Part shown: positions 1 to 12,032 of the stretch, piece after piece | How positions within the stretch are numbered: the first letter of the stretch is position 1 | Layout of the letters: the number at the start of each line of letters is the position of its first letter | The notes under the pieces: generated by a model | Told to the model about the DNA's origin: nothing | The model's database searches: none | Seen by the model: only the letters and a program-made list of their open reading frames with translations | IMG/VR virus record: IMGVR_UViG_3300022074_000473 | Span: 1 to 20,466 of that record | Origin: a virus | Length of the DNA stretch: 20,466 nt | Strand: one strand, 5' to 3' | Translations under genes and position numbers: made by a program

Positions 1-681
1 AGCATTACCTAATTTTGTATGGTCTGCATCTGTAAAGACATTAGAATCTGAAGCAGCTTCTACTGCTGTTCTTATCTCAGCATTAGTTTGGTCAGCAGTT
101 GCACTAGCTTCTATACCATTTAATTTAGTATGGTCAGCATCAGTAAACACGTTGCTATCACTAGCACTTTCAACAAGTGTTCTAATCTCTGCTGCTGTTT
201 GGTCTGCTGTAGCAGAAGCTTCTATTGCATTTAATTTAGTATGATCTGCGTCTGTAAAGACATTACTATCACTTGCACTCTCGACTAAAGTTCTAATTTC
301 TGCATTTGTCTGATCTCCTGTAGCTCCTTCTTCTATACCTGCTAATTTATCAATAATCTCTTGTTGAGCAAACAATACTTGGTTAGTATTGCTATCTAAA
401 TCTGCTTCTGTAAGAACACTTCCATCTTGAAAGTCAATAGCTTTTGTACTTATATTTGTATTTCTTTGAAACTTAATTGCTGCACTATTAGCAGGAACAT
501 TACCAACAGTAAAAGTAACTGTTGATCCGCTAACTGTATAGTGAGTACCTAATGTTTTAGTAACTCCTGCAACTGTTACAACTATTTCAGAAGTAGTAAT
601 GTACTCAAAACTAATTGAATAGTTAACTTCTGTTCCGTTTCCTGTATGGTTAGTAAACGTATTAGTGGTGTTAGTTGCCAT
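1..681 (-). CDS. Tail fibre protein, N-terminal part (runs off left edge)
   Basis: This is the 5' end of a tail fibre gene, 227 codons, still open at the window edge. Residues 1-115 look like the T7 gp17-type N-terminal domain that attaches the fibre to the tail: it starts MATNTTNTFTNHTGNGTEVN, is beta-rich and continues with TKAIDFQDGSVLTEADLDSN. From residue 116 it becomes tandem 37-residue repeats (listed separately), probably a fibrous shaft; the receptor-binding tip would lie beyond the edge. The ATG follows the stop of the 1477-residue core gene by two bases (TAA-CT-ATG), with no Shine-Dalgarno sequence, which suggests translational coupling. The position after the core proteins matches T7 gene 17. 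The family call is from pattern recognition, not a search. Confidence 0.88.
   Translation of the reverse strand, partial: MATNTTNTFTNHTGNGTEVNYSISFEYITTSEIVVTVAGVTKTLGTHYTVSGSTVTFTVGNVPANSAAIKFQRNTNISTKAIDFQDGSVLTEADLDSNTNQVLFAQQEIIDKLAGIEEGATGDQTNAEIRTLVESASDSNVFTDADHTKLNAIEASATADQTAAEIRTLVESASDSNVFTDADHTKLNGIEASATADQTNAEIRTAVEAASDSNVFTDADHTKLGNA
4..336 (-). repeat. Three tandem 37-residue (111-base) repeats in the tail fibre
   Basis: Units lie at 226-336, 115-225 and 4-114, each exactly 111 bases and in frame. The repeat runs from IEASATADQT through a variable-alanine stretch to SNVFTDADHTKL. Units 1 and 2 are identical over 24 consecutive residues (EIRTLV to DHTKLN), yet about 13 of those 24 codons differ synonymously. 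Unit 3 has a few substitutions (TAVEAASD, ending KLGN). The array may continue past the left edge. Similar repeats occur in marine phage fibres and probably form a trimeric shaft. Confidence 0.9.
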
Positions 682-683
682 AG

Positions 684-3600
684 TTAATAATTAATAAAAC
701 CTTTAAGCATTTCAGTAGTGTTCATTTTTTGTTCACCTCCTTCCCATAATAATAGCTTTCTGTTGTAATCTTCATATTGTTTTTTCTTTTCTTTACTTAA
801 AGGGTCTATACCTTTTGGTAATCCTTCGCCTGTTATAAATGCTTTTTTAGCTCCTTTTTTGTAATAAGTATGTATTTTTCCTAAAATCTCACTTAAATCT
901 TTTCTTGCTTTATCTATTAAATCAACTCTCATTCTGTCATTAAAATCTGCTGTTAAATAAAAATCATTACCTGTTATTCTTGCCATTTCTGCTCTATCTT
1001 TTGCACTAATTTCCCCTTTCATTTCTTTTAAATTACTAATTTTATTTAAAGATATTTGTCCAAAACGACTTTCTAAAACTTGTTTCATAGCGTCATACAT
1101 TCTTTGTCTTTTTCCGTTGTAATACAAAGAAACAAAAGCAGTTGCACTTATTAAGTTTGCTGTTTCAGTTTTATCTAAAAATATTCCATTAGTAAAGTCA
1201 TTCTTAGGAATTAAAACATCTGTTGGTGGTGCATATTCTTCGCCAAGAGCATTTATAGCAGACAAGACTAGATCATTATTAGTCATTGTTTTCTGTGACC
1301 AACCATCAGTAACTAAATTCATTTCTCCTGCTCCAAAACCTACAGGAGTTTTCATAAAGTTACCTGTAATATGATGTTGCATTGGTCTTGCTTCAGCATT
1401 ACCCCAACTTGTTTTACCTGCAATTTCATTTAATAGTCTTTGGAATATTACTAAAGGTGCAAACTTTGCATCTGGTTGTCCTTCTTCATCTAAGAATTGT
1501 CCTTTAGCAACCTTTCTATCCATTCTGATATTGCCTGACTTACTTTCATCAAACATTCCTGAGTTAATTGCAGTCTTAACATTCTTTTGTAAACCACTTA
1601 AAGGTACAGCTAAAGTAGCAATTCTATTCATTAAGTAACCATTTAAAGTAGATTCATTATTCATCACTTTAAACAGTTCTGTCATACCTCGCAAGTATGA
1701 CTTATCTCCAAGATTGTTATACATAGCAGACATAATTACTTGATACAAACCATCTTTTTCAATTTGTCCTTCTTCTCCTAATAATCCACCTATTCTTGAT
1801 AAGTCTGCTACTGAACTTAAGAACATAGCGTAAGGGTCAAGTCTCTTATAACTAATGTATCTGTAAGCTAACTTGCCATCTTCTCCTCTTACTAACTTAA
1901 CGTCAGGGTGTTCAGGATGGTTTATTACTTCATACGCTTTTCCTTCTGCTCCATACTTGGCTATATCTTCTTCTGTAGCTCTTAATCTAAAAGCATAAGG
2001 TAAATATCCAGTAGCTAATAATTTTTCTCTTGCTTGTTTATTAGCAGGTAAACCACCTGTTATTGCAACTTTAGCTGTAGGGTCATTAAGATTATTAGCA
2101 AATAAAACTCCCATAGTAAGCATAGAATTACCAACTATCATTCTTCCTTTTGCCATACCTCTAACTGCTGAATCATCAGAAGCAAAATCTTCAGCAGTCT
2201 CCCTTACAAAAGCTAGATGTTGTTTAGCCCAAGCGTTATCTTTTAACAGATAACCAACAGGTGTAGTTTTTGCAAACTGCTTCATTATGTTAGATGGTGT
2301 TCTAACAAAAGGTATTATCTGACGTAGTATTGGATTTTGATTTACTATTTTTTGTACAGTTTTACCTGAAGTTCCATTTAATAAATCTTCTGTAAATGTT
2401 GCTTCGTTAGCATACTGTCTTGCTTCTTTATATAATTTTGAATTTTGCTTAGATAATTTACCTGTCATTGATTCTTTATTAACAACATCAATAATTGAAT
2501 TAAATTGATTGTTGACATATTTTTCATATTCAGACCTGTTTGCAAATTTTTTCCCTAGACTTCTTTCCCATATCTTTGCTTTAACATAGGCTCTAAAATT
2601 TACTTGCTTAAAAAATTCATCTTCTGCCATAAGAAATCTTTGTGGCAAAGTATAAGTCCCATGTAATCCTTTTATAAAAAATCCTTTTCCGCTTACATCA
2701 ACTTGATTTAATCTTGATATGTCTACAGTTTGGTTTGTTGCATCTAAAATATTTGCATTATTCATAAATGATTTACCCGCCATATTCATAGATTCAAAAG
2801 TTGCAACCGACATATAATACATTTCCATTAAACCTCTTTTAACAGTTGCCATACCTTCAGAACTAAGACCTTCATTGTTTTTTAAAAGTCCTTCTCCTAT
2901 CTCAAATCCACCACCTACAACTTTCATAAATGGGCGTACTGCTGTATTTAAAGCAGTCGACAACATATTGACTTGATGTGTTATTGGACTAGATAAAATT
3001 GAATTTATAAATAATTCGTTAGTGATTTTTATGACATTATTACCTTTTTGTGCTTGTAAGATCATCTTCATAGCTCTTGGGTTTGTAGCTGCAAGATGTA
3101 GTTGACGAGTAAGTTTCATTAAAGCTTTTGTATTACCTGAATCAGCAGCTTTCATAATCTGCTCTACGGTAAATGACTGTAATGGATCTTCTATTGCTTC
3201 AAGTGCTACATCATCTGCGTTAGCCATATCAGCTAAAACCTTATCTTGATTACTTGATTCAAGATAATTTTTTAATCCTTTAACTTGTCCTGTTGCTCCT
3301 TCTACTAAGTCTCCTGAAGTTTTATTTACAACCCTTAGAGAAGAACCTAAAACGCTTTTTGTTCCTCCTTTAACATTTAAAAGATCGCTGTAAAATTTTA
3401 ACGTATGAAATAAATCTTGTTTTAATATGTCGTACCCATCTCCTTTTTGTATTCCTCCTTTCGTCAGTTTTAATTGATTGTGCATCTGCATTGAAAGATC
3501 ACGAACAACAATACCTGATTCCAAGATCATGTCATTCAAAGTAATAATTACAGCAGGTAAATCTATTTCTCCGTCTGCTCCATACTTTTCAACAAAATCT

Positions 3601-5117
3601 GCTGCTGCGTCATAAACATCTAAAGGTAGTTGGCTCCTTGCTTTTTCAAATAAACCTTTATCATTCCTTACATTTTTTTTATTTAATTCTGCAACTGCTT
3701 TTGATCTGGCAGTAATGTATTCCCATATCGCACCTTTTTTAACTATTTGTCCATCTTTTTGAAAAAAGTTTTTGTATAAACTTCTAGCATTAAATGTTCG
3801 AGTAATCTTTGAATTTTGTAAAGGCACTCCATATAATGAGTTACCTGTACCACCTGATGTTTCTGTTAAATATTTTTGCATAGCTTTATTATTTTTTAAA
3901 GCCTTTTCATATTGAACCTGACTTATTATTAAATTTGCATCTATTTCGTCTAATTCAACTTTGTTTATATCTGCTCCATTCTTTTGCATAATATCGTTTA
4001 ATTTTGCAATTACGACTGATCTTCTTTTAGGATTAGCTTTCATTTCATAAAACTTTTCCATTACAAAATCAACAACTTCTTGTCCTTTTTTACCTGTTAA
4101 ATCAGTAATACTTTTTATACCAAAAAGTTCTTTAAACATTTTTGCTTTTGCTAGTTGTTGTTTAGCAAACGCACCTGTTCTTCTTCCTCCTTTGCTTATA
4201 ACTTTGGTTGCAGCAGGTAAACCTTTACCCATTACTCCTTCTCCTACTACTAAACCTTGAACAAGAGACATTAACCTACCTCTCATTCTGTCTTCAACAC
4301 TAGATTCCCCTGATTCAGGAGCAGTTAAGAAATCTAAAATAGGATTTGCTAAATCAAATCTTTTTTCTATAAAATTAAAAAAGTTAGCGTCATAAGGATC
4401 TGTTAAAGCTGCGTCTGTTACTGCACCTGCAATAGCATATCTAAATCTTTTTACTCCTAATTTTTTTAAACTTTTAGCTACTAATCCTGTTGGTATAATC
4501 CATTGACTTATTGTTTTACTTAGACCATAACCACTTAATAATCCGTCATCTACTTCTTCTGAGTATTCTCCACCTATAGGACTTTTAAAACCATAGTTAT
4601 CATGTCCTTCTTTAAAACCTATTAAATCAAAATCATCTGCTCTTTTTGAATTATATAAATCTCCCATTACTAAATCTAAAACATCATCTCCAAAGGCATA
4701 TAACTCATTAATACTTTCTATACGACCATTTATTAGCCCTCTTACAATTTTACCTGTAAGTGTTTTCTGTACTGCTTTTTTACTTTCTTCTAATTGTAAT
4801 TTAGAGTCTGCGTATTTTCTTTCGTTCTCTGCTGATTTTTCGTCATACCATTTTTTGACTCCACCAAACCAAGATGTATCTTCTGTTTCGGGTTTGTCTA
4901 ATGGATTTACTTTTGATTCAACTATTTCTTGCTTTTGTTCTTCTACTTTTTGATTTATTATTTTTTCTTCTGTAACTTTTTCTGTTTCTTTCTCATTAAT
5001 ATAAGTATCTCCTCCGACTTTGACTTCATTGTTTACTTCATTAACAGCATTTACTATGTTAGCTTGTTGGTCATCATTACCTGAAGTACTGATGAGAGTA
5101 TTGATTTCGTTAGACAT
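684..5117 (-). CDS. Large internal core / ejected virion protein (T7 gp16 position)
   Basis: This 1477-residue protein lies between the gp15-position protein and the tail fibre, the place of T7 gp16 (about 1318 residues), which is ejected and spans the cell envelope. Residues 40-125 are highly charged and probably helical (repeated KETEKVTEEK-type sequence). Hydrophobic stretches appear near residues 200-240 (WIIPTGLV, YAIAGAVTDAAL) and near 995-1010 (MLTMGVLFANN). Residues about 927-950 carry NPILRQIIPFVRTPSNIMKQ, a motif I associate with large phage core proteins. I see no transglycosylase-like N-terminus such as T7 gp16 has; a wall hydrolase domain sits instead on the preceding protein. 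The ATG abuts the previous stop (TAA-ATG), with no Shine-Dalgarno. Role is inferred from position and size. Confidence 0.75.
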   Translation of the reverse strand: MSNEINTLISTSGNDDQQANIVNAVNEVNNEVKVGGDTYINEKETEKVTEEKIINQKVEEQKQEIVESKVNPLDKPETEDTSWFGGVKKWYDEKSAENERKYADSKLQLEESKKAVQKTLTGKIVRGLINGRIESINELYAFGDDVLDLVMGDLYNSKRADDFDLIGFKEGHDNYGFKSPIGGEYSEEVDDGLLSGYGLSKTISQWIIPTGLVAKSLKKLGVKRFRYAIAGAVTDAALTDPYDANFFNFIEKRFDLANPILDFLTAPESGESSVEDRMRGRLMSLVQGLVVGEGVMGKGLPAATKVISKGGRRTGAFAKQQLAKAKMFKELFGIKSITDLTGKKGQEVVDFVMEKFYEMKANPKRRSVVIAKLNDIMQKNGADINKVELDEIDANLIISQVQYEKALKNNKAMQKYLTETSGGTGNSLYGVPLQNSKITRTFNARSLYKNFFQKDGQIVKKGAIWEYITARSKAVAELNKKNVRNDKGLFEKARSQLPLDVYDAAADFVEKYGADGEIDLPAVIITLNDMILESGIVVRDLSMQMHNQLKLTKGGIQKGDGYDILKQDLFHTLKFYSDLLNVKGGTKSVLGSSLRVVNKTSGDLVEGATGQVKGLKNYLESSNQDKVLADMANADDVALEAIEDPLQSFTVEQIMKAADSGNTKALMKLTRQLHLAATNPRAMKMILQAQKGNNVIKITNELFINSILSSPITHQVNMLSTALNTAVRPFMKVVGGGFEIGEGLLKNNEGLSSEGMATVKRGLMEMYYMSVATFESMNMAGKSFMNNANILDATNQTVDISRLNQVDVSGKGFFIKGLHGTYTLPQRFLMAEDEFFKQVNFRAYVKAKIWERSLGKKFANRSEYEKYVNNQFNSIIDVVNKESMTGKLSKQNSKLYKEARQYANEATFTEDLLNGTSGKTVQKIVNQNPILRQIIPFVRTPSNIMKQFAKTTPVGYLLKDNAWAKQHLAFVRETAEDFASDDSAVRGMAKGRMIVGNSMLTMGVLFANNLNDPTAKVAITGGLPANKQAREKLLATGYLPYAFRLRATEEDIAKYGAEGKAYEVINHPEHPDVKLVRGEDGKLAYRYISYKRLDPYAMFLSSVADLSRIGGLLGEEGQIEKDGLYQVIMSAMYNNLGDKSYLRGMTELFKVMNNESTLNGYLMNRIATLAVPLSGLQKNVKTAINSGMFDESKSGNIRMDRKVAKGQFLDEEGQPDAKFAPLVIFQRLLNEIAGKTSWGNAEARPMQHHITGNFMKTPVGFGAGEMNLVTDGWSQKTMTNNDLVLSAINALGEEYAPPTDVLIPKNDFTNGIFLDKTETANLISATAFVSLYYNGKRQRMYDAMKQVLESRFGQISLNKISNLKEMKGEISAKDRAEMARITGNDFYLTADFNDRMRVDLIDKARKDLSEILGKIHTYYKKGAKKAFITGEGLPKGIDPLSKEKKKQYEDYNRKLLLWEGGEQKMNTTEMLKGFINY

Positions 5118-8100
5118 TTAATATAAAGGAGGATTTCTCCGAGCATCATTAAGAACATCTGTCACTAGCTTAACGTAGTCTGAGTCTGTTGCATAACCAT
5201 TTTCTTTTAATCGTATTATTGCTTCTTCAGCAGTATTTACATTTATAGTACCTTTTCTAGTGCTGTAACCATTAAACCAATCGTCATTATGATATTTCTT
5301 ATAATCTAATAGCATTTCTTTTACAGATGTAAAGTTTTTAAACTTCTCCATACGTTTAACCATCTTGCCATTTATCTCTTCAAATGTTTCAACTTCAGTA
5401 AAGTTACCTGATTTTATATCTTCAGGTCTTGCTTTTATACCTAAGTAATTATTTGTACCAGTAACTTTTAATCCATGCGTTGACTCCACACCAAACTGTG
5501 CTGCAACCACTTCTGGGAATTTAATACCAACTTCTTTAGCTAAAGCGTAAATTGTTTTAAAGTTAGTTTCCATACGAACTACATTATTTTGGTCTTTACT
5601 AATTTCTACTTTTGTATCTTGTTGCTCTTTTGTTTCTGTTCCTTTTGGAGGTAAAGCCATAGCTATAAGACTGCCATCTCTTAAACCTAGGTTTGAAGTC
5701 ATGTCAGACTGTACTTTAGATAAGTCTTGTGTCGGTAAGAAATCTCCTGTTACTGTTGGTGTTTCTTCTTGTGTTCCTAACTCTTGTGCTGTTTCATCTT
5801 GAAAAGAACCCATCAGGTTTGACTTCATATAGTTAGGCATAGCCTTATAGATAGTGTCATTAGTATCAAATCCATAAGCAGTCTTTAAATATAAATCAAA
5901 TCGTTTCATAAAGTTGTCTCCTGCTCCTATCGGTAATGGTACTTCTCCTGTGTTAGTAAGTAATGTTCCATCTTCTACTGCATTTGCAGGTGGCACAATT
6001 ATGTCAGAAAAGATTTTAGATAAATTTACATTATTAATTGTTTTAACTTCATTACCGCCCTTGTTGGTATCTACTGTCTTAGTCGGAGTCTCAGTTAAAA
6101 CATTTGATTCTTCTACATTTTCGTTAGTGTTCTGGGGTGTTACTACCCCTGTATTTCCTGCATTAAAGTTGTCATCAAACTTAGAGTCAGCATTAAAACT
6201 ACCTTCTGGGTAAGTGTCTCCTCTTTCAACTGATTGATTAAATTCTCTACGAGCTAACGTAGAATTATAATTATTTATTCTTTCAGTTAAATCTGAATAC
6301 TTCCTTGTTATGTTGTCTCCTATATTTTCGTATAAGTCTAATATTCCATATTGTTCTATATCTTGATCTGACAACTCTACTTCATTTAATAATTTAGCTA
6401 AATTCTCTTTGTCATTTGCAGCTATATCTCCTGTCTTAGCTTTTTCTGTTTCTCCTGAAAATTGATTTAATAAAAATTCAATAGTTACATCTTTACCTAA
6501 ATAATCATAAGCCATTTCTAAATCTTCTAATGTTGGTTTTGCTCTTTTATCTCCTACAATATCTTGCTTACTAATTAAATTTTTTAAAACTTCTTTTATT
6601 TTTTGTTTATTTATGTCTTTTTCCTGTTGTTTAAATTCAGGAGTTAAACTATCTATACTCATGTTTATTCCATCTTGATCGCTTGCGTATTTTTGTATAG
6701 CTAATAAATTAATATTCATAACTTCTCTTCTTCTTTCTTTTTCAGCATCTATTTCTTCTTTTGTTGGGTATCTTGGTGCTTCTCCTTCTGTAAATACTTT
6801 TTTAGTTTCTGCGTAATCCATCATGTATGGAATTATTGCTTGTACTTCAGTATTTAATTTGCTCATTAAAACAGGATCATTTTTAGTTTCATCAGATAAA
6901 GTATTAAAAATAATTGTTTTTGAAGTCACTACTTCTTTTGCTCCCGTTGCTGCATAAACTCTTTCTTCGTTAGCTTCTGTATCTACCATGTCGTTTAACT
7001 TATTAAACTTTGCAGTATCAGCATCTAATTTCAATGTACTGTTATACCAGTCTTCTATTTTTACATAAGCCAATTCATCATCACGAAGATTACCTCCTCT
7101 TAAATCAGCATATAACTGGTTATAACTTGCAAGTGGGTTAGGGTTGTAAGTATCTCTATTGTTTTTTAACCATGTAAGTGCTTTTGGACTTTTAGAAGCA
7201 AGTTCTTTTATTGTTTGTCTATCTTCGTCTGTTATATCTTTTCCTTTTCTTAAAAGAGTTTTTATTGTCTGTCTGTCTTTTAATAAATCTTTATCTCCTC
7301 CTATTTTTTGATCTTGTATTTCTAAAGCGTTTATAGCTTTAAGTGCAGTATTTAATTTACTCTCATAATTTTTTTTAGTTTGTAAAACATTCTGGTCAAA
7401 ATATTCTGCTTCAAATAAAGGCTTACCTTTCTCGTCAAACATCTTTTCGCCTTTTGCATTTACTACACGTTTCAAAACTGGATTGACTACTACTTCTCCT
7501 TTCTTATTTATTTTTGTTTCCGTTTTCATTTTTCTAGGAAACAAGTTTGCATAGTTTTTTATAAAGTCTCTAGCTAAATCAAACCTTTCATCTCCCATTT
7601 CTGTCATAGATGCCATTAACAAACCTCTATCCATAATCCATGGAATAATTACTTCGTCATAAATTTTTGCTTGATCTTCTGCTTGATATAGTTTTGATAC
7701 GTTTTCAACTATCTCTCTAATATCTTTTGCTTCAGCACTAAAGTCTGCTTTATCTCCAAACTTTGCAGTTTTAATTTGATACGAAGTCCAAGTTAAACCT
7801 AAGTTTTCTTTTAACTGTTTTTTGTATTCTTCTAATTTGTAGTAAGCATGATCTGTGTCATGTTCTTTTGCAAAGTTTTTTACTCCTTTTTCTATTTGTG
7901 GTAAAAATGATCTATTAAAATAAAACTCTGATACATTAGCTGCTTCAACATTTTTATTTCTAAACGAACTAATGTAATCTTGTACTTCTGCACTTTGATA
8001 AGGATATGCCGATAGCGGTTTCATTTCCCCTGTAACCTTGTCTGGCACTCTATAAGTGTCATAGTTAGATTCAAGTTCTACTGCAAAGTTTTTACCTAGA

Positions 8101-8501
8101 GTTATAGCTTTAGCTTCTTGATATGCGTTGCTATACCATAAACTTTTTCCTCTAGTAATTTCTACATCAATACCTTTTTGATTTTTCTTAAGAGCATTTA
8201 AGGATTTTGCGTAGTCTTCTGAAGTCTCGTCTATCTCTACATTCTGGGGATATAAAAGTTTTTCTGTCTTACTATATATTCTTCCTGCTGCTGATCCTTT
8301 TTGTTGTGCTTCAGCTACTTCTTTTTCTTTAATGTCTTCAATTTTAGTTACTATAAATTTCTGTAACTTAGGTTCAATAGTTGCCAATGCTGTAGCAACC
8401 TGACTTAAAGGGTCAGTTATGTTAATAGCAGCAACAGTACTTTGTTGAACAAAAGTATCTCTCGGTGTTGTAGCTGATTGAAAACCTTCTGGTACTGCCA
8501 T
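5118..8501 (-). CDS. Internal virion protein (T7 gp15 position) with C-terminal glucosaminidase domain
   Basis: This 1127-residue protein is mostly charged, Lys/Glu-rich and helical in character. Its last ~145 residues (about 983-1127) look like a glucosaminidase (GH73-like) peptidoglycan hydrolase: YALAKEVGIKFPEVVAAQFG, then VESTHG with a likely catalytic Glu1006, then NNYLGIKA. A typical C-terminal half follows (FTSVKEMLLDYKKYH, EEAIIRLKENGYATDSDYV). This domain would cut the host wall during DNA ejection. Residues about 800-960 are low-complexity Asn/Thr/Glu-rich and may be a flexible linker. It follows the gp14-like gene directly (TAA-ATG junction) and precedes the gp16-position gene the same way. 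T7 gp15 is shorter (about 747 residues) and has no wall hydrolase. Alternative: an independent tail lysin fused to a core protein. Confidence 0.8.
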   Translation of the reverse strand: MAVPEGFQSATTPRDTFVQQSTVAAINITDPLSQVATALATIEPKLQKFIVTKIEDIKEKEVAEAQQKGSAAGRIYSKTEKLLYPQNVEIDETSEDYAKSLNALKKNQKGIDVEITRGKSLWYSNAYQEAKAITLGKNFAVELESNYDTYRVPDKVTGEMKPLSAYPYQSAEVQDYISSFRNKNVEAANVSEFYFNRSFLPQIEKGVKNFAKEHDTDHAYYKLEEYKKQLKENLGLTWTSYQIKTAKFGDKADFSAEAKDIREIVENVSKLYQAEDQAKIYDEVIIPWIMDRGLLMASMTEMGDERFDLARDFIKNYANLFPRKMKTETKINKKGEVVVNPVLKRVVNAKGEKMFDEKGKPLFEAEYFDQNVLQTKKNYESKLNTALKAINALEIQDQKIGGDKDLLKDRQTIKTLLRKGKDITDEDRQTIKELASKSPKALTWLKNNRDTYNPNPLASYNQLYADLRGGNLRDDELAYVKIEDWYNSTLKLDADTAKFNKLNDMVDTEANEERVYAATGAKEVVTSKTIIFNTLSDETKNDPVLMSKLNTEVQAIIPYMMDYAETKKVFTEGEAPRYPTKEEIDAEKERRREVMNINLLAIQKYASDQDGINMSIDSLTPEFKQQEKDINKQKIKEVLKNLISKQDIVGDKRAKPTLEDLEMAYDYLGKDVTIEFLLNQFSGETEKAKTGDIAANDKENLAKLLNEVELSDQDIEQYGILDLYENIGDNITRKYSDLTERINNYNSTLARREFNQSVERGDTYPEGSFNADSKFDDNFNAGNTGVVTPQNTNENVEESNVLTETPTKTVDTNKGGNEVKTINNVNLSKIFSDIIVPPANAVEDGTLLTNTGEVPLPIGAGDNFMKRFDLYLKTAYGFDTNDTIYKAMPNYMKSNLMGSFQDETAQELGTQEETPTVTGDFLPTQDLSKVQSDMTSNLGLRDGSLIAMALPPKGTETKEQQDTKVEISKDQNNVVRMETNFKTIYALAKEVGIKFPEVVAAQFGVESTHGLKVTGTNNYLGIKARPEDIKSGNFTEVETFEEINGKMVKRMEKFKNFTSVKEMLLDYKKYHNDDWFNGYSTRKGTINVNTAEEAIIRLKENGYATDSDYVKLVTDVLNDARRNPPLY

Positions 8502-9125
8502 TTAAGTTGTCTGGAATTGTGATTTGCTTGGGTCTATATCCATATAAGTTGACAGACCTGAAGAAGCTACATTAGCTATCGTTGGCAATAAGCCTTGATA
8601 TTGCTGCTGTGCTTCCATATATCCTCTATTTCCTATATCCGTAGCTTGATTTCTACGGCTATCTCGTTGTGCAATTATTGCTGAGACATCTCTACCATAC
8701 TGCACTTCTGCCGATTCTAATGATTGTGATAAACTTTCACGCATACCTGCAACTTGTCTATCAACATCCATTTGTATAAGATTTAACAACCTGCCAGAAA
8801 CACCTTCTCTTGCTGCTACTGATCCTCTAGCTTTCAATCCTTCTACAGTTTTTGCTAATTTTTTTTGTGCAGCATCAGCCCTTCTTTCTTGTAACTGTGC
8901 ATTTAACGCTTCTTGTTGTGCAGACATAGCAGCGTCAGCAGATAAAGCCGTTCTTTCTGCTGCTTGATATGCGTAAGATGCAGTTTGTCTAGCAACTTTA
9001 TTTTTTTGTACAGCACCTAAAACTTGTGTACCTGCACTAAGAGCTAAAGACGCACCAAATAATCCTGCGGCTGATCCTGCAAGTGTACCTCCACTTAATG
9101 CTGCTCCTAATGCTACAAAACACAT
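8502..9125 (-). CDS. Internal virion protein B-like (T7 gp14 equivalent)
   Basis: The protein has 207 residues, close to T7 gp14 (about 196). It starts MCFVALGAALSGGTLAGSAA; residues 3-37 form a hydrophobic Gly/Ala-rich segment able to insert in a membrane. A long Ala/Gln/Arg-rich helical region follows (about residues 40-170; AAERTALSADAAMSAQQEAL, QLQERRADAAQKKLAKTVEG). In T7, gp14 is ejected and forms the outer-membrane part of the DNA channel, and this arrangement fits that role. It lies between the gp13-like and gp15-position genes, as in T7. Its ATG shares one base with the preceding stop (TAATG). The Met-Cys start is shared with two other small proteins of this window. Confidence 0.82.
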   Translation of the reverse strand: MCFVALGAALSGGTLAGSAAGLFGASLALSAGTQVLGAVQKNKVARQTASYAYQAAERTALSADAAMSAQQEALNAQLQERRADAAQKKLAKTVEGLKARGSVAAREGVSGRLLNLIQMDVDRQVAGMRESLSQSLESAEVQYGRDVSAIIAQRDSRRNQATDIGNRGYMEAQQQYQGLLPTIANVASSGLSTYMDIDPSKSQFQTT

Positions 9126-9577
9126 TAGCTCATCCTCATAAATTCATAGAACGGTTTTTTATGTTCTCCATATTCTTTATGATAGTTTATAAATTGAAAT
9201 CCTAAAGTTTCTAACCATTTCATAGCCTTTTTATTTTCAGCATATACTACATTGTATAAAATTTTATATGATTTAAGCAATTCATCAACCCATTTTCTAC
9301 CTTCTCTTATTAATTGTATTTTATATTTGTCGTTTGAAAACAATTCTTCTGTTGCAACCATATAGATACAACCATTATATGTTACTCCACAGATACCAAT
9401 AGGGTTATCATTGTCTCCACAAATAGCCATAACTGTTTTACTTGATAGATAAGCCATTTTAATTGCAGAATCAGGGTCTTGATTTGTTTGATATACAGCT
9501 TCAAGCCTGTCCATATCTCTCATGTTATCACTTACGTATAGCATATCTTTTAATGTGCATTTTCTTAAATGCCCCAT
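9125..9577 (-). CDS. GNAT-fold-like virion assembly protein (T7 gp13 equivalent)
   Basis: This 150-residue protein lies between tail tubular protein B and the gp14-like gene, the position of T7 gp13. The C-terminal half, VVYAENKKAMKWLETLGFQF, resembles both GNAT N-acetyltransferases and the matching part of T7 gp13 as I remember it (WNYVWVGNTSHIRFLKTIGA). The acetyl-CoA pyrophosphate-binding motif (Q/R-x-x-G-x-G/A) expected after the central strand is not visible; the region reads MVATEELFSNDKYKIQLIRE. A structural role without acetyltransferase activity is therefore likely, though an active enzyme cannot be excluded. It is one of the few genes here with a good Shine-Dalgarno-like sequence: AGGAGA about eight bases before the ATG, inside the end of the previous gene. 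Confidence 0.75.
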   Translation of the reverse strand: MGHLRKCTLKDMLYVSDNMRDMDRLEAVYQTNQDPDSAIKMAYLSSKTVMAICGDNDNPIGICGVTYNGCIYMVATEELFSNDKYKIQLIREGRKWVDELLKSYKILYNVVYAENKKAMKWLETLGFQFINYHKEYGEHKKPFYEFMRMS

Positions 9578-9578
9578 A

Positions 9579-12032
9579 TTATATTCTCCTACTCTTCATG
9601 TGAAACATAGCTTCAAATTCTGCACTAGCTAATAAGGTAGGTAAGAATGTTTTATTTTTTACATCTATATCTACACCATCTGCCCTACTCATTATTGGTA
9701 CTCTAAATGTTCCTGTCTCTAGATTAAGTTGGCCTATCAGAGATGAAGCAGCACCTAGCAAACGACCACTAAATTTATGAGTACTGGTATCTCTATGTTC
9801 AGGTGTTACTTCTACTTGAAAGAAACCACTCTTCTCAAACTTAATATAGAAATGATGTAGCTGTACTCTTGAACTAATAATCTCTGCACTATTTTGCTGT
9901 GCTGTTTCAGTAATCCTTTGTTTACTAAACCTATAGTGCATATCGTAAGGTTCTCCTACTATAAATTTTGATAGTCTAAAGTCTCCATCTGCTTCTATTG
10001 TTGTAGTAGATCCATTAGTTAAGTTTGTTGATTGAATAATTGTTGCTGGTTTTAATGTCTTTGTTACTCCATTCTGGTCAACAAAAGTACTGGTTTCACT
10101 TGGTGTTAAATATCTTCCTACCACATCCATATCTGCTCTTAACCTATAAGGCAAAGTAAATGTAGATTTCTTAGTAGTACTGTTATAGGCAATGCTGACA
10201 CCTGTAGTTGCTTCAGTTACTTTATGATCTAGGTGATATTCAAACTCAGCATTAGGTTCTTTATAGTCTGTTTCAAAAGGCAGCTTTTCTAAAGTAACTT
10301 TATTGGCTTCTTCAATTACCATAAACAAATCTGTACCTATAAAATCAATATTCTTTATAGACCTGTTTTCATTAATAGTAAAAGTAAACCAACTATTTAA
10401 AACTTTCTGTCCTTGTTGACCAAACAACCAACGATTAATAAATAATTTATTTGGATTATCAGTACCCAAGCAAACTAAAATGTCTTGATTATTAGAGACT
10501 GCAAGTTTAAAAATATTACTTGGTATTAGTCTTGGTACATGAATAGTAATGTTTGCAGCATCTTTTATTGTTACGTCTGACTGTGTTATATATTCTCTGA
10601 TACCTGCAAAGCTTCCTTTCTTAGTTAGAAAATAAATACTAGATCCACTACCTACTGGTTGTGCTTGATCGCTAGATTCAAATTCAGTTGCTACAAGTAC
10701 GTTAGCTGTTAGAGGAGTTAAACTATCTGATGAACTAGACAATACAAACTGCGTCTGTTCAGAGAATAGAATTAACTGTTCTCCCATAGTTACAGCGTGT
10801 TTTAAGATAGCAACTTTAGTATGAGAAGCAGCTACATCTATAGGATGTGAGTCAACAATAGTTAAAACTGTGTCAGGAAAGAAGTTAAAAAATTGAGATA
10901 CGTTAGATAGGATTACATTGTCATCAGCTAGAAATCCTAATCTGTTCCTAAAGAAAAATACGTTATTTATTTTACGACCAATAAATGTAGGATCTGGAGC
11001 AGAGATGTCATCTCCTGCTGTGCGTTCTCCCCACTTAGGTAAAGTATAATCTGTTCCAGATAAGGTATAAGTATCACCATCTACTCTTGCAAATCTAAAA
11101 TTACCATCAGCTTGCCTTACTAATATATGTGGCATGGTGGAATAATTAAATTTAAATTCTATGCCAGCTTCTACAGTTTCTTCCCATTGCCCTTCTTCAA
11201 ATGTACCTCCATTATTGGTGACAAATTTTACATAGTAATTATCAAAATTAGTATTCTCATCTCCTTTTACTTCAACAATATATCCATTAGGAGAAACAGT
11301 AGGTAGGTCTGTAAATCTTTGTACTGAATTTTTAACTATTTTTAATTGTGTATTACCTTGCGTGTCAGTTCCATCAATAGAAAAATTACTACCATTTGTT
11401 TTTTTGATATGAATAACACTTCCATTTCTGGCAATAGTAAATCCTGACAGTCCTGAGTTAAGACCTGATTGCAAATCGGATGCAACTTGTGAAGTGCTTA
11501 GAGATGAGTCGCTAGTCGTGTCATCTGTTACTGTAACTCCATCAACTGTTACTGAGTAAACAGTATCATTAGAAACCTGCTCTACAAATATTATTGCTTG
11601 AGTAATATTGCCACTTGATAAAGTTGTGTCCATAGCAGCAACTACACTTGTATTAACAACAAATGTATAGTCAGCAATAGTAACAGTTTTTATTTCATCT
11701 CTAGGAATAGATGTATTTAAGTAGGTAGTGCCATCAGGTTTGTTTACAGTCTTTTCATTCCCTGCTAAGTCATAGACTTTTACATTTCCATTACTAAAAA
11801 TAGCTACATACTGTTCATTAGTATCTCTATTAATAGTTTGAATATGAACATTACCTAAAGTTGAAGTACTTAAGGCTGTAATAAATTGAATACCAGATCT
11901 TTTAACTAGACCTACTACTGGATTACTGTCAGCATTGTCTTGAATATCAGCATGGTCTGATTGTTTAGATGAATCAGAAGACTGAGATACACCTCTCAAT
12001 AAAGTAGGTATAGCTCTTGATACAATTCCCAT
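9579..12032 (-). CDS. Tail tubular protein B (T7 gp12-like nozzle)
   Basis: At 817 residues it is close to T7 gp12 (about 794). The N-terminus is diagnostic: residues 5-48 hold RAIPTLLRGVSQS, then ADIQDNADSNPVVGLVKRSG, the conserved start of podoviral nozzle proteins (in T7, GISQQP...CNPDPVAGLSRRP). The rest is beta-rich, with TFIGRKINNVFFFRNRLGFL near residues 345-370, typical of the propeller part. It forms the distal tail tube through which DNA leaves. The gene starts two bases after the stop of tail tubular protein A, as in T7, and is followed by the gp13-like gene. No Shine-Dalgarno sequence is visible, so coupling to the upstream gene is likely. Confidence 0.93.
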   Translation of the reverse strand: MGIVSRAIPTLLRGVSQSSDSSKQSDHADIQDNADSNPVVGLVKRSGIQFITALSTSTLGNVHIQTINRDTNEQYVAIFSNGNVKVYDLAGNEKTVNKPDGTTYLNTSIPRDEIKTVTIADYTFVVNTSVVAAMDTTLSSGNITQAIIFVEQVSNDTVYSVTVDGVTVTDDTTSDSSLSTSQVASDLQSGLNSGLSGFTIARNGSVIHIKKTNGSNFSIDGTDTQGNTQLKIVKNSVQRFTDLPTVSPNGYIVEVKGDENTNFDNYYVKFVTNNGGTFEEGQWEETVEAGIEFKFNYSTMPHILVRQADGNFRFARVDGDTYTLSGTDYTLPKWGERTAGDDISAPDPTFIGRKINNVFFFRNRLGFLADDNVILSNVSQFFNFFPDTVLTIVDSHPIDVAASHTKVAILKHAVTMGEQLILFSEQTQFVLSSSSDSLTPLTANVLVATEFESSDQAQPVGSGSSIYFLTKKGSFAGIREYITQSDVTIKDAANITIHVPRLIPSNIFKLAVSNNQDILVCLGTDNPNKLFINRWLFGQQGQKVLNSWFTFTINENRSIKNIDFIGTDLFMVIEEANKVTLEKLPFETDYKEPNAEFEYHLDHKVTEATTGVSIAYNSTTKKSTFTLPYRLRADMDVVGRYLTPSETSTFVDQNGVTKTLKPATIIQSTNLTNGSTTTIEADGDFRLSKFIVGEPYDMHYRFSKQRITETAQQNSAEIISSRVQLHHFYIKFEKSGFFQVEVTPEHRDTSTHKFSGRLLGAASSLIGQLNLETGTFRVPIMSRADGVDIDVKNKTFLPTLLASAEFEAMFHMKSRRI

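Follow-up and report, generated by a model that had tools for sequence, protein, structure and literature searches.

A predicted FlgJ-type glucosaminidase at the C-terminus of the gp15-position core protein of T7-like phages, in a slot whose modules appear to be exchangeable

The marine viral DNA analysed here, 20,466 bases long and hereafter called the window (positions 1 to 20,466 of IMG/VR record IMGVR_UViG_3300022074_000473), carries a T7-like gene block on its minus strand. One gene of this block, a single open reading frame (ORF) at 5118..8501, encodes an internal core (ejection) protein of 1127 residues in the position of T7 gp15; the gp-position labels used throughout (gp12 to gp16) follow the T7 gene numbering. 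By sequence and structure modelling, this protein ends in a predicted FlgJ-type glucosaminidase domain of the GH73 family. We consider it likely that the domain is an entry enzyme tethered to the ejection tunnel, held in an exchangeable slot at the gp15 C-terminus.

An original prediction, made from the sequence letters, had placed a glucosaminidase-like domain with the motifs ESTHG and NNYLGIKA at 5118-5560, the last ~147 residues of the ORF. Both motifs are present (residues 1006-1010 and 1017-1024), and hidden Markov model searching bears out the family: Pfam PF01832 (Glucosaminidase) matches residues 984-1119 (5145..5552, minus strand) at E = 5.6e-12, with a score of 46.8 bits where the curated cut-off is 30.2. 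Three PHROG endolysin families also match the protein, at 1e-20 to 3.2e-10. Searching the PDB with phmmer returned FlgJ at 5.7e-05, and a profile built from 13 relatives of the domain recovered ten PDB chains at E ≤ 0.01, with FlgJ at the top (5.1e-11).

Structure prediction around Glu1006 also gave FlgJ-type structures as the best matches. The AlphaFold2 model of the whole protein has a mean predicted local distance difference test (pLDDT) score of 67.9 and a predicted template modelling (pTM) score of 0.33; over the domain (residues 971-1120) blocks score 69-85, but 42 and 54 over 1071-1090. Foldseek with the domain model returned 3vwo (5.9e-05), 7qfu (2.5e-04) and the FlgJ entry 5dn5 (2.9e-04). 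The top eleven matches all come from peptidoglycan hydrolases: seven are FlgJ/SpFlgJ, AtlA or Auto, and four are chains of 5t1q, which is titled an amidase. VIA-align superposed residues 973-1127 on SpFlgJ (3vwo) with Z 15.4 and a root mean square deviation (rmsd) of 2.7 over 144 aligned residues; the tenth row was the type VI effector 4kt3, at Z 10.7. The structural domain spans residues 966-1127 (window 5121-5606), slightly more than 5118-5560.

Two glutamates of the domain correspond, by counting along the FlgJ alignment, to the FlgJ catalytic pair. Glu1006 (5484..5486, minus strand) is the predicted general acid/base; it aligns with FlgJ E184 and is invariant in 13/13 aligned domains. The predicted second catalytic residue, Glu1041 (5379..5381, minus strand), lies in the beta-hairpin, aligns with FlgJ E223 and is at least 90% conserved in the same 13-domain alignment. 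In FlgJ itself, E184 is the conserved general acid/base and E223 a beta-hairpin glutamate required for activity (PMC4752226). All five pairs formed with the window, which are not independent since the partners L113 and L114 are near copies, gave a nonsynonymous divergence (dN) of 0.039-0.079 against a synonymous divergence (dS) of 0.31-0.45, a dN/dS of ~0.13-0.18. The domain is under purifying selection, as expected for a working protein. It is predicted to be active and to cleave the beta-1,4 bond between N-acetylglucosamine and N-acetylmuramic acid (GlcNAc-MurNAc).

The original prediction also held that the gp16-position protein, 1477 residues long (684..5117, minus strand; PHROG 6651, internal virion protein, E = 8.6e-39), carries no such domain, and it matched no Pfam family at E ≤ 1. 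At E ≤ 0.1, Pfam assigned a peptidoglycan-hydrolase family to none of 24 nonredundant gp16-position proteins (set A2, without the copies L006, L076 and L087), ten unrelated families being weakly present. In the control, T7 gp16 gave SLT at 1.7e-31 over residues 15-127, the sole SLT match among 19 reference gp16-position proteins. Since a glucosaminidase is found on the gp15-position protein and none was detected on the gp16-position protein, both the carrier and the enzyme class differ from T7. That part of the earlier claim of a T7-unlike core stands; its suggestion of a different ejection order or topology is not supported, and a changed order is superfluous to the reading we favour. The proposed swap of the hydrolase to another carrier is likewise retained, and goes further than had been claimed: the slot is one in which several unrelated modules alternate.

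To survey this slot, we took as relatives the best 80 of 503 nozzle relatives in IMG/VR, many of whose contigs end inside or before gp15; all relatives except Prochlorococcus phage P-SCSP2 are metagenome contigs. All 41 complete gp15-position proteins examined end in one of five module types: a glucosaminidase, two transglycosylase-like types and two without a name in any library used. In 39 of them, window and P-SCSP2 included, the last 130-185 residues fell into five groups, and every protein matched exactly one module profile, which demonstrates exclusiveness and not identity because the profiles were built from the same proteins. The types derive from four BLAST clusters, one of which (12 proteins) was split by hand into nine SLT_3-type proteins and three others. 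Two proteins whose nozzle is absent or cut were added later: L005, which nearly duplicates the gp15-position protein of the window, and L062, which is in no profile and matched the SLT_3 type at 2.7e-49. Among 34 nonredundant proteins there are 17 of the glucosaminidase type, 9 of the SLT_3 type, 3 of a second SLT type, 4 of the P-SCSP2 type (shared by the cultured phage with L044, L069 and L080) and 1 of the L049 type. Pfam at E ≤ 0.1, run on 33 of the proteins (set A1, without P-SCSP2), found glucosaminidase in 17, SLT_3 in 9, SLT in 7 and LysM in 12; the glucosaminidase-type set A4 held 18 proteins, one copying the window's, and set A7 held 13. Neither the group's 28 gp16-position proteins nor the 36 proteins taken from 18 reference phages gave a match to any module profile. 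Of the 18 named gp15-position proteins, the Pfam scan covered 10 and the profile test all 18; MEP301 (L102) was excluded for its unclear core gene order.

The P-SCSP2-type module was considered, from its letters, as a SleB-like hydrolase. This guess was dropped, as it found no Pfam support at E ≤ 1, no fitting PHROG, no sensible PDB profile match and no link to the glucosaminidase profile; the module is left unnamed. Separately, in gp44 of phage Syn5, which holds the gp15 position (L093 1703-4213), residues 695-815 weakly match Phage_lysozyme2 (E = 0.013, below the cut-off), hinting at a C-terminal slot older than the present group.

In three cases, the module differs or moves on its own. The window shares with L113 and L114 a module (5117..5576, minus strand; defined by blastn and by alignment at both edges) over 460-462 alignment columns at 88.7 and 88.3% identity, ending at the gp15 stop codon. 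Outside it, blastn found no match to L113 or L114 in the gp15 body or gp16, and the gp15 bodies have only short or weak pieces in common (23-52%). In the second case, L035, L034 and L029 are 86-89% identical to L044 in their gp15 bodies and 87-88% in gp16, and carry a glucosaminidase module against the P-SCSP2-type module of L044. In the third, the DNA of L046 and L047 is 95-98% identical over six 60-base windows up to a break at the LysM end (65-91% mostly further upstream); past the break the catalytic parts are unlike, and after the stop identity returns to 98-100% in the first three windows and 88-91% beyond. Recombination would be the route of these exchanges.

A linker motif, LGLRDGSLIAMA (5655..5690, minus strand), lies directly before the window's module. 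Its relaxed form occurs in 12/34 nonredundant gp15-position proteins, namely 11/17 of the glucosaminidase type, 1/3 of the SLTQ type and 0/14 of the others. Patches of identity between the window and L113 at this linker would fit recombination there. A separate observation concerns the 38-kb contig of L032/G004 (L194 1-665; L195 1887-5282), both ends of which lie inside the gp15 module, in versions 84% identical to each other; it looks as though strain variation there had interrupted the assembly. What appeared to be a second glucosaminidase gene on this contig proved to be the opposite end of this module, at which the contig breaks with two strain versions.

We then compared module type with the nozzle tree (34 proteins, leaving out the five copies L004, L006, L028, L076 and L087). 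The five types need 14 changes, against a possible minimum of 4. With shuffled labels the mean was 15.3 changes, and values as low as that observed arose in 35/200 shuffles, so module type hardly follows the nozzle.

Upstream of the linker, the gp15-position protein has a helical body (residues 109-524; 6930..8177, minus strand), perhaps tunnel-like. VIA-align matched it weakly to T7 core entries: 7k5c_A (Z 8.0, rmsd 16.0, 266 aligned), 6yt5_A (Z 8.0, rmsd 16.2, 264 aligned) and 9jyy_G (Z 8.0, rmsd 4.3, 181 aligned, residues 116-393). PhiM1 8vb2_E followed at Z 7.0 (rmsd 8.7, 260 aligned).

Taken together with the known behaviour of T7-like core proteins, which act at entry and in T7 are ejected and form a tunnel (PMC8954989), these features suggest the following model. 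The gp15-position protein would be present in virions and ejected with the other core proteins, its body building a periplasmic tunnel. The tethered domain would act at entry, opening the peptidoglycan along the path of the tunnel, a job done in T7 by the gp16 transglycosylase. The slot, which follows the gp15 body and precedes gp16, would allow modules to be swapped as units that run up to the gp15 stop codon. In PhiM1, eight subunits make up the gp15-position oligomer and four the gp16-position one (PMC11440229); by this analogy, tethering to gp15 may place more enzyme copies at the wall.

Several observations weigh against this reading. Unrelated helical proteins score like the T7 core chains against the gp15 body in VIA-align; the body match is a hint, and gene order is the main basis of the gp15 assignment. 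The P-SCSP2 type and the single-protein L049 type, two of the five, have no catalytic Pfam family, so that their hydrolase label derives from position. The Pfam silence on gp16 is weaker than it appears because Pfam was equally blind to the annotated domains of phiKMV gp36 and gp37, the latter an endolysin domain. Furthermore, the fold model of gp16 residues 1-725 is poor (pLDDT 46.4; 19/24 gp16 pieces, set A5, were used for folding), and the gp16 profile comparison for a hidden hydrolase, which found no match, carries no power because its positive control, in which the SLT_3-type module was compared with the T7 SLT domain, found none either. Several switches on the nozzle tree may mean that the gp15-gp16 block was replaced as a whole, and not the module by itself (for example L009/L013, with bodies at 33%). 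Finally, in cyanophage S-CBP1 the same domain family is annotated as a lysozyme gene of its own, lying downstream of that for the tail fibre, and PF01832 was not found apart from gp15 in six records, namely those of four relatives (37.3-38.3 kb), a 17.7-kb fragment and P-SCSP2.

These last points would suit a role of the domain, additional or sole, in lysis at the end of infection, with gp15 doubling as endolysin. Amidase_2 (PF01510) and phage lysozyme (PF00959) were likewise absent from all six records, in a search for separate endolysins that took in these three enzyme families. By record, PF01832 occurred on gp15 only in L030 (37.6 kb) and L016 (37.3 kb), both L032 matches are gp15 ends, and the L025 record and P-SCSP2 have none. 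The named relatives of the domain, among the matches listed, come from cyanophages and bear the annotation lysozyme, endolysin or hypothetical; of all named matches, the records of S-CBP1 and Sulfitobacter phage NYA-2014a were inspected. Since no other lysis enzyme of these families was found in the six records, a double role is conceivable. Against it, T7-like core proteins are entry proteins (PMC8954989), and the context of the domain is that of the core. Among 80 viral loci with the domain (all counted, including near copies such as L110, L117 and L120), 56 by rule place it at the C-terminal end of a frame that adjoins core genes, or 55 without the doubtful L169, and the remaining 24 have frames of 206-509 codons. 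In 44 of the 55 the frame has at least 700 codons, ten are cut at the 5' side by the contig start, and that of L123, at 641 codons, begins beside it. On balance we regard a lysis role as unlikely.

Hydrolase folds can persist for binding alone, and the domain might be such a catalytically dead GH73 fold, kept for peptidoglycan binding or core assembly. Both FlgJ catalytic glutamates are conserved, however, the dN/dS is low as given above, and other hydrolase classes are among the modules that occupy the slot elsewhere, which together make this very improbable. That the module differences are chimeras of metagenome assembly is suggested by the origin of all relatives but P-SCSP2 and by the L032/G004 contig, which starts and ends in the module. 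Yet the same arrangement recurs on contigs from, by their names, different samples (L113 and L114; L029, L034 and L035), frames run continuously through the junctions of complete proteins, and the cultured P-SCSP2 shares its module type with L044, L069 and L080. We therefore give an assembly artefact hardly any weight, and retain the entry glucosaminidase in an exchangeable slot as the probable reading.

Wider relatives of the domain were also inspected. L184 and L186, among the 55 core-context loci, belong to distant phages whose gp15 bodies have no blastp match to the window's. An apparent gp15-gp16 fusion in L184 (a 2104-residue reading) was rejected, as the tblastn match had run past a stop; its gp15-position protein has 921 residues and ends at the domain. 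Three loci with the module lie in bacterial genomes: L189 belongs to a phage core region of the kind described here, and the remaining loci hold ORFs of 498 and 374 residues without adjoining core genes, so none of the three offered a bacterial donor. In Sulfitobacter phage NYA-2014a (Caudoviricetes in its record; L192 5527-7461), a related domain lies inside a 644-residue 'peptidoglycan hydrolase'.

A hydrolase on the gp15-position protein is already known. The C-terminal lysozyme domain of phiKMV gp36 sits on such a protein and has demonstrated lytic activity (PMC5380687, where SP6 gp36 is also listed as a lysozyme), and K1E/K1-5 carry a wall hydrolase there too, the hydrolase being able to swap from gp16 to gp15 (PMC8954989). 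The window resembles these in carrier, and phiKMV in the C-terminal placement, but those enzymes are lysozymes acting on the other glycosidic bond, whereas its module is glucosaminidase-type by sequence; the module profiles of the group gave no match to phiKMV gp36 at E ≤ 1. As in T7, an entry hydrolase would sit in the ejected core of a T7-like phage (PMC8954989, PMC11440229), although T7 has its SLT domain at the gp16 N-terminus. In the PhiM1 ejectosome, OEP contains a lysozyme-like domain (Gly718-Ser903) and TEP an endolysin-like one (Asp268-Asp528) (PMC11440229). PhiM1 thus shares a hydrolase-like domain late in the gp15-position protein, and its 8vb2_E is among the weak body matches; unlike the window's, the OEP domain is lysozyme-like and not GH73, and there is a second domain on the gp16-position protein.

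The GH73 fold (Z 11.8-15.4) and the E184/E223 pair are shared with FlgJ/SpFlgJ, AtlA and Auto, which are bacterial flagellar or autolytic enzymes and not virion proteins. Among phages, the GH73-type genes of cyanophages S-CRES1/2, PSS2 and S-RIM2 are 33.6-40.0% identical over the domain (60 of 89 matches listed). Genes of S-CBP1 and S-CBP3 were found with the L184 domain (50.4%), and that of S-CBP1 is a separate gene, unlike the fused domain of the window. In the literature searched, which took in few subscription papers, we found no report of a glucosaminidase in a podovirus core; the available text of PMC11172527 names glucosaminidase only within a list of enzyme classes. As far as these searches reach, two things are new: a core of this kind carrying a glucosaminidase, and several enzyme classes being exchanged inside a single group.

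The block as a whole comprises primase/helicase, exonuclease (both names transferred from P-SCSP2 and C159), portal, scaffold, capsid, tube, nozzle, the gp13- to gp16-position proteins and the start of a tail fibre, with the core genes in the order nozzle, gp13, gp14, gp15, gp16, fibre. The nozzle (gp12 position; 9579..12032, minus strand; PF25675, E = 1.6e-250) served as tree marker and as anchor for finding relatives. It is followed by the gp13-position protein (9125..9577, minus strand; PF11090, E = 3.1e-06; PHROG 308, E = 3e-35), which besides this T7 Gp13 family shows weak matches to GNAT acetyltransferase families, and by the gp14-position internal virion protein (8502..9125, minus strand; PHROG 805, E = 3.7e-06; PF24072, E = 4.1e-05, with 24 bits where the curated cut-off is 27). 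The tail-fibre ORF (window 1-681) has a T7 fibre N-terminus and then near-identical in-frame repeats of ~37 residues each.

The nearest named phage is P-SCSP2, with 75.5% identity in the nozzle and the same gene order; from this kinship we would guess at Prochlorococcus as the host of the window's phage. The gp15-position protein of P-SCSP2, PSCSP2_00029, differs in having 876 residues and the unnamed C-terminal module. In the same phage (L001 8567-11878 and 11881-16671), PSCSP2_00031 begins with the N-terminal part of a T7 tail fibre (PF03906, E = 5.7e-18), and PSCSP2_00030 stands at the gp16 position, with homologues there. If the numbering follows the locus tags, its internal virion proteins are for these reasons rather g29 and g30 than the g29 and g31 of the ISME J paper.

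The core genes of P-SCSP2, which the phage's authors were unable to annotate (PMC9860041), thereby gain likely positions as gp15 and gp16. More broadly, a single group of relatives shows the module itself exchanged, with clean edges and among several enzyme classes, which goes beyond the gp16-to-gp15 swap described in PMC8954989. Tentatively, and with more doubt than conviction, we suggest that this may be a dedicated exchange slot, in which hydrolase classes replace each other faster than the nozzle diverges as hosts vary in their peptidoglycan, so that wall-cutting specificity would come second to receptor binding in determining host range. Whether the wall bond cut by the entry enzyme limits the hosts that a phage can enter thus becomes a testable question.

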